Assembly: GCF_003053565.1 (NCBI RefSeq)
Contig: NZ_QAXS01000002.1
Location: 1 to 64,000, forward strand
DNA: 64,000 bases
Direction of reading: 5' to 3'
Source of the DNA: Halanaerobium saccharolyticum
GTDB lineage: Bacteria > Bacillota > Halanaerobiia > Halanaerobiales > Halanaerobiaceae
The notes beneath the pieces were generated by a model, which saw only the letters and a program-made list of their open reading frames with translations, was not told where the DNA came from and made no database searches. The number at the start of each line of letters is the position of its first letter. Within the stretch, counting starts at the first letter, position 1. Made by a program: the position numbers and the translations under genes. Positions 54,079-62,792 of the stretch are shown here, piece by piece.

Positions 54079-54664
54079 TATAAAAAGTGATCTGAAATTG
54101 GTTTTAGCTTCAGCTTCTCCTCGGCGAGAAGAAATTTTAACACAGTTAAATTTAAAATTTACTATTGTACCTTCAAAAATTGATGAATCAGCTTTTGACC
54201 ACAGTGACCCGGTTGAGCTGGTCAAAGTTCTGGCAGAAAAAAAGGCCAGTTCTGTTTCAAAACTGGTAGAGGATGCTCTGATTATTGCTGCTGATACAGT
54301 AGTAGTCCATAATGATCAAATCTTAGGAAAACCAGGCAATAAATTTGAAGCAAGAAAAATGCTTAAACAGTTAAGCTCAGATAAGCATCAGGTTATAACC
54401 GGGGTTGCAGTTTTAAATTCCCGGACAGGCGAAAGCTATCTTGATTATAATATTACCGAGGTTAAAATGACTGCTTTAAGTGAGAGCGAAATAGAAAATT
54501 ATGTTGAAACTGGAGAACCGCTGGACAAGGCTGGAGCCTATGCTATTCAGGGTTTTGGAGGTCTTTTTGTGGAAGAAATAAAAGGATCTTATTATTCGGT
54601 GATGGGACTTCCCATTCACCAGCTTGCTGATTTAATGGATAAATTTAATTATGGAATCTTATAA
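54059..54664 (+). CDS. maf: Maf family nucleotide pyrophosphatase
   Basis: Hydrolyses dTTP, UTP or modified nucleotides; in Bacillus it also influences septum formation. The 201-residue protein has the core KLVLASASPRREEIL, SKIDESAF, AADTVVV, LGKPGN and the YAIQGFGGLFVEEIKGSYYSVMGLP segment. The order maf-radC-mreB is a classical Firmicute cell-shape locus. The start overlaps the transporter gene, with GGGGG 9 bases upstream. Confidence 0.95.
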   Translation: MIKKANNIKSDLKLVLASASPRREEILTQLNLKFTIVPSKIDESAFDHSDPVELVKVLAEKKASSVSKLVEDALIIAADTVVVHNDQILGKPGNKFEARKMLKQLSSDKHQVITGVAVLNSRTGESYLDYNITEVKMTALSESEIENYVETGEPLDKAGAYAIQGFGGLFVEEIKGSYYSVMGLPIHQLADLMDKFNYGIL

Positions 54665-60566: not shown

Positions 60567-61361
60567 TTGGCAGGCAAAACAATTGTTATTACTTCAGGTA
60601 AAGGTGGAGTAGGAAAAACTACTTCTTCAGCAAATATTGGTACTGCCCTGGCAATGCAGGGGAATAAAGTGTGCTTAATAGATGCTGATATTGGTCTTAG
60701 AAATTTGGATGTTGTTATGGGATTGGAAAATAGAATAGTTTATGATATTGTTGATGTTGTTGAAAGCAACTGTCGGCTGGAGCAGGCTATGATCAGAGAT
60801 AAGCGTTATGATGGTCTTTATTTACTACCAGCTGCACAGACAAGAGATAAAACTTCTGTAACTCCTTTTCAGATGAAGGAGCTTATTGAAAAATTAAAAG
60901 AAGATATGGATTTTATTGTTGTTGACTCACCAGCGGGAATCGAGCAGGGTTTTAAAAATGCAATTGCTGGTGCAGACAGAGCAATTATTGTTACTACACC
61001 CGAAATTTCTGCTGTCCGTGATGCTGACCGGATTATTGGTCTGCTGGAAGCAGAAGGTCTGCGTGATCCAGAAGTTATTATCAACAGGATTAGAGCAGAT
61101 ATGGTTGACCGCGGAGACATGATGGGTATTGATGATATGATAGAGATACTGGCTATTGATTTAATAGGTATTGTTCCGGAAGATGAAGGTATTGTAGTTT
61201 CTACTAATAAAGGTGAACCGATTGCCTTAAATGATAATGCTAAAGCAGGTCAGGCTTACCGCAATATTGCCCGCAGAATTATGGGTGAAGATCTGCCGAT
61301 GATGCCGTTAGAAAAAGATAGTTTTATAACCAGATTCAAAAAATTAGTTGGTTTATCTTAA
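60567..61361 (+). CDS. minD: Septum site-determining ATPase MinD
   Basis: A 264-residue deviant Walker A ATPase (TSGKGGVGKTTSSANIG) that dimerises on the membrane with ATP and recruits MinC; MinE stimulates its hydrolysis. The C-terminal amphipathic targeting helix FITRFKKLVGLS is present. Switch motif: VVDSPAGIEQGF. Start TTG 60567 follows AGGGGGGA. It is followed by an unusual minE start. Confidence 0.97.
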   Translation: MAGKTIVITSGKGGVGKTTSSANIGTALAMQGNKVCLIDADIGLRNLDVVMGLENRIVYDIVDVVESNCRLEQAMIRDKRYDGLYLLPAAQTRDKTSVTPFQMKELIEKLKEDMDFIVVDSPAGIEQGFKNAIAGADRAIIVTTPEISAVRDADRIIGLLEAEGLRDPEVIINRIRADMVDRGDMMGIDDMIEILAIDLIGIVPEDEGIVVSTNKGEPIALNDNAKAGQAYRNIARRIMGEDLPMMPLEKDSFITRFKKLVGLS

Positions 61362-61379
61362 TATAAGGGGGGGAGTAAA

Positions 61380-61637
61380 ATCGATATATTAAAGTGGCTC
61401 GGTTTGAAAAGTGATGACAAAAAGAGTAAGAGTGTAGCAAAGGAAAGACTGCAGTTTGTTCTTGTTCAGGATAGAGTGAAATTGACTCCAGATGAAATGG
61501 ATGCAATGCGTGATGAATTAATAGGTGTTTTGAGTAAATATATAGATGTTGATTCTCAAAAGATTGAAATGGATGTTAAACGAGAGGACGATATGACTGC
61601 CTTAGTTGCAAATTTCCCCCTCAAGGGTTCAAAATAG
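61380..61637 (+). CDS. minE: Cell division topological specificity factor MinE (apparent ATC start)
   Basis: Stimulates MinD ATPase to drive pole-to-pole oscillation. From ATC 61380 the reading is (M)DILKWLGLKSDDKK..., matching the conserved amphipathic membrane-targeting N-terminus of MinE; the MinD-contact segment ERLQFVLVQDR and the C-terminal dimer domain follow. Between the minD stop and this ATC the same frame has no ATG, GTG or TTG. The first standard start, TTG 61404, would remove the targeting helix. GGGGGGAG lies 4-5 bases before ATC, ideal spacing. I therefore infer a non-canonical AUC start, giving 85 residues. Confidence 0.8.
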   Translation: MDILKWLGLKSDDKKSKSVAKERLQFVLVQDRVKLTPDEMDAMRDELIGVLSKYIDVDSQKIEMDVKREDDMTALVANFPLKGSK

Positions 61638-61652: not shown

Positions 61653-62792
61653 ATGTACTGGAATAAAAAATTCCTGCGTTATTTAAATTTTAATGTACCA
61701 TTTGCTGTGATTCTGTTAATTATTATTGGTTTTGTCAGCATTAGTTCTGCTGTCGAAATCAATCAGGTAGACAGTGGTGCTTTAAGGTTTTTACAAAAAC
61801 AGGCAGTCTCAGTTGTACTGGGACTGCTGGTTGTTTTTATTCTGCAGGCTTTTGATTATAAAATTTTTAAAGAATATGCAGCAGTTATTTATGTTTCAAT
61901 GCTTTTGATGCTGACAGCAACTATATTTTTGGGTCAGGGTGTTGCCGGCGGGGCACACTGGATCAGTATTGGTGCCTTTAACCTGCAGACTTCAGAATTA
62001 TCTAAAATTATGTTGATTTTAGTTCTGGCAGCAGTAATTGACAATAATTCTGATGATATGGGCTATTTAAAGGGGATGTTTTTGCCTTCGATAATTGCCT
62101 TTATTCCCTTTGTGCTGGTTATTTTACAAAATGATCTGGGGACTGCCCTGGTTTTATTTTTTATTTATTTAGTAATGCTTTTTGCTGGCGGCGGTAATTT
62201 TAAATATATGGCGGCAGTTTTTGGTGGTGGTTTTCTTTTACTGGTACTTATAATAACGGCTCATGTTGTGCTTGATACACCACTACCATTTTTAAAAGAG
62301 TATCAGTTAAATAGATTAATAGTGTTTATAAATCCCAATATTGACCCCCACGGCAGCGGCTATAATATCATTCAGTCGATAATTGCCCTTGGTTCAGGCA
62401 GAACTTTTGGTAAGGGTCTTTTTGCAGGCACTCAAAATCAGCTTAATTTTCTGCCGGAAAAACATACTGACTTTATATTTTCAGTAATTGGGGAAGAATT
62501 TGGATTTTTAGGTTCAGCAGTTGTAATACTTTTATTTTTATATTTACTCTGGCAGTTTTTAAATATAGCAGAAAATGCCAGGGACCGCTATGGCTATCTG
62601 GTTGTGATTGGGGTAATGGCAATGTTTTTATTTCATGTCTTAGAAAATATCGGCATGACAATGGGAATTATGCCGATTACGGGTATTCCCCTGCCTTTTA
62701 TCAGTTACGGGGGAACATTTATGCTGACCTCACTGACTGCAGTGGCAATAGTAATAAATATAAACTTAAGAAAAAATAAATTGATGTTTTAA
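61653..62792 (+). CDS. rodA: FtsW/RodA/SpoVE family peptidoglycan polymerase (RodA)
   Basis: A SEDS glycosyltransferase that polymerises lipid II for cell elongation, 379 residues with about ten TM helices. Family motifs: GAHWISIGAFNLQTSELSKI and YNIIQSIIALGSGRTFGKGLFAGTQNQLNFLPEKHTDFIFSVIGEEFGF, with the end GIPLPFISYGGTFMLTSLTAVAIVININLR. Partner of PBP2 at 57945, in the same gene group. It follows minE by 15 bases. The catalytic Asp region (EKHTDFIFS) is present. Confidence 0.95.
   Translation: MYWNKKFLRYLNFNVPFAVILLIIIGFVSISSAVEINQVDSGALRFLQKQAVSVVLGLLVVFILQAFDYKIFKEYAAVIYVSMLLMLTATIFLGQGVAGGAHWISIGAFNLQTSELSKIMLILVLAAVIDNNSDDMGYLKGMFLPSIIAFIPFVLVILQNDLGTALVLFFIYLVMLFAGGGNFKYMAAVFGGGFLLLVLIITAHVVLDTPLPFLKEYQLNRLIVFINPNIDPHGSGYNIIQSIIALGSGRTFGKGLFAGTQNQLNFLPEKHTDFIFSVIGEEFGFLGSAVVILLFLYLLWQFLNIAENARDRYGYLVVIGVMAMFLFHVLENIGMTMGIMPITGIPLPFISYGGTFMLTSLTAVAIVININLRKNKLMF

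Follow-up and report, generated by a model that had tools for sequence, protein, structure and literature searches.

The minE locus

The window analysed here, a 64,000-nucleotide stretch of the Halanaerobium saccharolyticum genome (NCBI RefSeq assembly GCF_003053565.1, contig NZ_QAXS01000002.1, positions 1 to 64,000), carries on its forward strand the gene order mreC/mreD-like, PBP2-like, minC-like, minD, minE and rodA-like (Table 1), in which all but minD and minE are named by translation and gene order. The minE product matches both Pfam PF03776 (E 2.5e-23, 82.2 bits, cut-off 25) and NCBIfam TIGR01215 (E 2.5e-22, 78.7 bits, cut-off 49.3), and the gene directly adjoins minD, with 18 nt between the end of minD (61361) and an ATC codon at 61380. 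In the minE frame, six codons (TAT AAG GGG GGG AGT AAA) lead from the minD TAA to this ATC and seven more (GAT ATA TTA AAG TGG CTC GGT) lead from the ATC to TTG 61404; the first-pass annotation had stated that the frame holds no ATG, GTG or TTG from the minD stop to this TTG, and our re-reading of the sequence agrees. An open reading frame finder restricted to ATG, GTG and TTG begins the gene at 61404, for a product of 77 amino acids. The segment DILKWLGL, encoded immediately after the ATC, is one that we take, from established knowledge of Escherichia coli MinE, to be the expected membrane-targeting segment.

Upstream of the ATC lies a run of seven G's (61367–61373) followed by AG, and a strong Shine–Dalgarno (SD) sequence had been placed 4–5 bases before the codon: an SD is indeed present, but its best anti-SD register, AAGGGGG, ends 8 nt before the ATC. 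The predicted SD:anti-SD duplex has an energy of −11.6 kcal/mol, a value exceeded in strength by 27% of genes, such that the minE SD is good, though not exceptional. Folding of a single 81 nt sequence around the start gave weak structure only (−6.8 kcal/mol). The SD-N8-ATH motif by itself shows no enrichment in the window (two observed versus 1.5 expected from shuffling), and the evidence for an AUC start comes from conservation rather than from the motif.

Table 1. Coordinates of the minE start region and its neighbouring genes in the window.
Feature	Position	Strand	Remarks
minD	60567..61361	+	TTG start, TAA stop 61359-61361; open reading frame call; MinD/ParA-type P-loop family matches
Shine-Dalgarno AAGGGGG	61365..61371	+	anti-SD pairing with one G-U; 8 nt 5' of ATC
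minE, predicted AUC start codon	61380..61382	+	ATC in 14/14 of the family; AUH in almost all of the 38 genomes of the order
minE	61380..61637	+	85 codons from AUC, then stop TAG 61635-61637; family-model matches
DILKWLGL N-terminal segment	61383..61406	+	missing if start is TTG 61404; conserved in family
TTG, first canonical in-frame codon of minE	61404..61406	+	rejected as start
rodA/ftsW-like gene	61653..62792	+	ATG start; open reading frame call; named by translation and position

Start codons across the Halanaerobiales

We located minE by protein search in all 38 Halanaerobiales genomes examined and read the start region in every one of them, including a family set of 14 Halanaerobiaceae (12 Halanaerobium and two of other genera). 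Within the family the start position is ATC in 14 of 14 genomes, preceded at 7–8 nt by AAGGGGG or GAGGGGG, and AAGGRGG at 7–8 nt from an AUH codon (AUC, AUU or AUA) recurs through the order. Of all 38 genomes, about 27 have ATC here, seven or eight ATT, two (G022 and G033) ATA and one ATG-ATA. Beyond the Halanaerobiaceae, ATC occurs in families f2, f5 and f6, most of f7 and one genus of f4, and ATT in the remaining f4 genera; the SD of G029 (TTGGAGG) was overlooked by the automatic rule, and one genome (G025), whose SD is doubled, is readable as either ATC or ATT. The alignment of relatives that the first-pass annotation had proposed for establishing the identity of this codon thus returned ATC throughout the family and AUH order-wide, and the DILKWLG segment, on whose presence in relatives its reading depended, is kept in them.

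In 31 of the 38 genomes the frame from the upstream stop to the AUH codon contains no ATG, GTG or TTG, and hence no canonical start able to yield the conserved MinE N-terminus. The exceptions are varied: in four genomes of genus g6 an ATG lies two codons 5′ of the AUH codon, but just 2 nt from the SD; in G019 the ATG precedes the SD; in G029 the canonical codon lies at or before it; and in G015 (family f3, locus L028) a usable ATG is found one codon before ATA, 5 nt from the SD. This last genome, nested in the tree described below, is the sole member of the order with a well-placed minE ATG, which is probably a reversion.

The conserved ATC might be read as a mere conserved isoleucine, and we therefore compared it with the 41 other invariant isoleucine columns of minD, minE and rodA in the 14 family genomes, a better control than any probability based on independence. 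None of these 41 columns keeps a single codon, whereas the minE ATC does, and the isoleucine codons neighbouring it vary among the same genomes. ATC is also the rarest isoleucine codon (14% across the order), and it fills 90% of the minE start column (29 aligned rows, the distant f4 ATT rows being unaligned) as against at most 46% of any other isoleucine column examined. The chance of ATC in 14 of 14 genomes, given an ATC share of 47/574, is approximately 6e-16 assuming independence, although the genomes are not independent. A plain isoleucine would be expected to drift among ATT, ATA and ATC; isoleucine itself could be conserved in MinE, yet its ATC spelling would then not be. We consequently rejected the plain-isoleucine reading: the codon is conserved beyond amino-acid need and at a fixed distance from the SD, as a start codon would be. 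The codon itself appears to fall opposite residue 2 (Leu/Ile) of MinE from the outgroups, not opposite residue 1.

Outgroups and evolutionary history

Approximately 70 further minE loci from Bacillota of the same and other classes were also read, and in essentially every readable case minE begins with ATG, GTG or TTG near an SD; three loci (L063, L065, L251) were improperly read due to a misplaced anchor, and for several loci the choice of canonical start is ambiguous, with two or more candidates. A FastTree phylogeny of MinD, the MinE core and RodA places the Halanaerobiales in one clade (support 0.96), the deepest branch of which (G014) has minE ATC. The simplest history consistent with this tree has the AUH start arising a single time, in the ancestor of the order, with G015 later returning to ATG.

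The N-termini suggest how such an origin may have come about. Outgroup MinE proteins often begin M-[LI]-[DE], whereas those of the order read [ATH]-[DGESN], so that the AUH codon looks like a former codon 2. We propose that the original minE start codon was lost and that the adjoining Ile-2 codon took over as start, an event that would have occurred once, at the base of the Halanaerobiales, with the AUH start then being retained by selection. A gene elsewhere in the window, maf (54083–54661; L196, G008:C1:1374478), has AAG ATT AAA in G008, with a strong SD 8 nt ahead of the ATT, where several other Halanaerobium species have ATG ATT (or ATC/ATA) AAA; this is possibly a fresh switch to an AUU start and a recent parallel to minE.

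Taken together, AUC, AUU or AUA codons at a fixed SD distance throughout the order, the loss of TTG 61404 in relatives and the canonical starts of outgroups argue for the start first proposed from the window, and we put the probability that minE translation begins at AUC 61380 at roughly 0.88.

infC and other candidate AUH starts

The gene for initiation factor IF3, infC, starts with ATC in 29 of 30 order genomes and with ATT in the other (L090–L119, including L092), in each case after a strong SD. The initiator tRNAs that were read have a CAU anticodon, such that AUC would be decoded with a third-base mismatch.

We also scanned for strong SDs lacking a canonical start in 800 kb of G008 plus the window and in samples of G017, G039 and G044. 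In G008 and the window the scan returned infC, minE and a few others, while the G039 and G044 samples (741 genes) contained no convincing AUH start. The resulting excess over outgroups is no more than suggestive (8/1166 versus 0/741, Fisher p 0.026), with candidates picked by eye and minE counted twice; leaving minE aside gives 6/1166, a number too small to carry weight. An ECF transporter-like gene (L227:12345, L260–L273) is without a canonical start; of the 14 family genomes, 13 have ATA and the remaining one ATT. A GDPD-like gene (L223:7222, L280–L293) has an apparent ATT start after GGAGGTGGAATA in Halanaerobium, replaced by ATC in a single genome; the triplet directly ahead of this codon is TAA in G007 and GTG in G006. 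Candidates from G017 include DUF421-like and lipoprotein-like genes (named by translation), and further candidate ATT starts with a strong SD and no nearby canonical codon lie at G017:C1:591044, G017:C1:696253 and G008:C1:953544.

Alternative explanations

Three alternatives would dispense with an ordinary AUC start altogether. Translation might begin at TTG 61404, the first canonical codon in the minE frame, or at a later canonical codon, to give a truncated protein, and the TTG-started product does still match TIGR01215 (77.4 versus 78.7 bits). This TTG is, however, almost devoid of an SD (−2.8 kcal/mol, weaker than in 98.5% of genes), the eight codons preceding it are conserved as protein in the family, and the codon itself is TTA, CTT or TTT in many relatives. 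Where it is lost, the next canonical codon is usually an ATG 39–41 codons in, which would remove the N-terminal half of MinE; eight of the 14 family genomes have no canonical codon downstream until 32–41 codons in, with about half of MinE gone. We regard such a start as very improbable. Production of MinE by read-through of the minD stop codon or by frameshifting, with no need of a start codon, is if anything less credible still: minE in the window does follow the minD TAA directly and in the same frame, but the relative phase of the two genes is not fixed across the order (18, 18 and two of 38 genomes), which argues against a read-through fusion; several genomes have an extra in-frame stop before the AUH codon, and the conserved SD would be superfluous. 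Equally implausible is a variant initiator tRNA that decodes ATC. A search of the order for the usual GGG/CCC anticodon-stem pattern returned zero matches, as A29-U41 replaces the first of the three conserved G-C pairs in the initiator tRNA (L140–L168) and certain second copies also have G31-U39. The anticodons read are nonetheless CAU, and the A29-U41 variant, not seen by pattern search in families f8 and f11, also occurs in families f9 and f10, the minE starts of which are canonical; it is thus insufficient as a cause of the AUH start.

A fourth explanation accepts the AUC start and denies it a regulatory role: the old start was lost, the SD makes AUC sufficient, and drift or lineage tolerance retains it. 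Other genes of these genomes also show AUH starts, and the maf gene of one species, with its recent loss of ATG and a neighbouring ATT now at SD spacing, is what such a process might produce. A single third-base mutation would restore AUG, yet only G015, nested in the tree, has a clear canonical alternative in the entire order. We consider this explanation a lesser possibility, to be taken seriously.

A model for MinE expression

Near-cognate AUU and AUC starts are rare in bacteria, infC being the best-known case; such starts are inefficient, and IF3 discriminates against them. The suggestion in the first-pass annotation that AUC could hold MinE low relative to MinD is in keeping with this behaviour. 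To our knowledge very few bacterial genes besides infC retain a near-cognate start over the long term. The ratio of MinD to MinE, in turn, sets Min behaviour and oscillation. Given this background, we lean modestly towards the view that the AUC start was selected for low or IF3-tuned MinE. An ordinary initiator tRNA would begin minE at AUC, aided by the good SD 8 nt upstream, and the weak start would cut the yield of MinE per mRNA relative to that of MinD from the adjoining upstream gene, with lowered MinE benefiting the MinD:MinE ratio. The same start would render minE sensitive to IF3, itself the product of an AUC-started gene in these bacteria, and this sensitivity would tie MinE output to the condition of the translation apparatus. 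The AUC start of infC and the CAU initiator tRNA make it likely that minE is an IF3-discriminated gene, like Streptomyces sigR. A broader and rather doubtful extension is that AUH codons form a regular minority start class in these bacteria (approximately 0.5–1% of genes, the ECF transporter-like, GDPD-like and DUF421-like genes among them), of which minE would be the deepest conserved member besides infC; IF3 would then set the output of a whole gene set and couple division to the capacity for translation, and the A-U pair at 29-41 of the initiator tRNA might make such starts easier.

Several known systems resemble this arrangement in part. Both infC and minE have an AUH start after a strong SD, with AUC used for infC in these very genomes, but IF3 regulates its own gene, whereas MinE is not known to take part in initiation. 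In E. coli, an AUU start limits the output of pcnB, which shares an AUH start with minE and is otherwise a different gene in a different phylum. A further case is Streptomyces sigR, where a GTC start is repressed by IF3, responds to IF3 level and to IF3 mutants, and holds SigR below RsrA (PMC5472188). Both genes combine a conserved non-canonical start and a strong ribosome binding site with a product kept in ratio with a neighbour-encoded partner; sigR, however, has GTC, encodes a transcription factor and has had its IF3 repression demonstrated by experiment, whereas minE has AUC, encodes a cell-division factor and would be subject to IF3 by analogy. In Staphylococcus aureus, the yield from AUA and AUU starts preceded by extended SDs is approximately 10% of that from AUG, rising to as much as 30% for ccpN in rich medium (PMC13009471). 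Like minE, ccpN (AUA) and cvfC1 (AUU) are Bacillota genes with conserved AUH starts and strong SDs; their starts were shown by ribosome profiling and reporters, while that of minE is predicted from sequence comparison.

We found no prior report of a non-canonical minE start in the open-licence PMC literature searched. The comparisons presented here widen the predicted AUC start from one genome to an order-wide trait, and on their evidence minE joins the few genes whose non-canonical start is conserved. It also lends itself well to testing: Min behaviour depends on the MinD:MinE ratio, so that start-codon strength has a readable phenotype. Gene finders limited to ATG, GTG and TTG would truncate or miss MinE across an entire order, and the AUC start of minE would link the placement of cell division to IF3.
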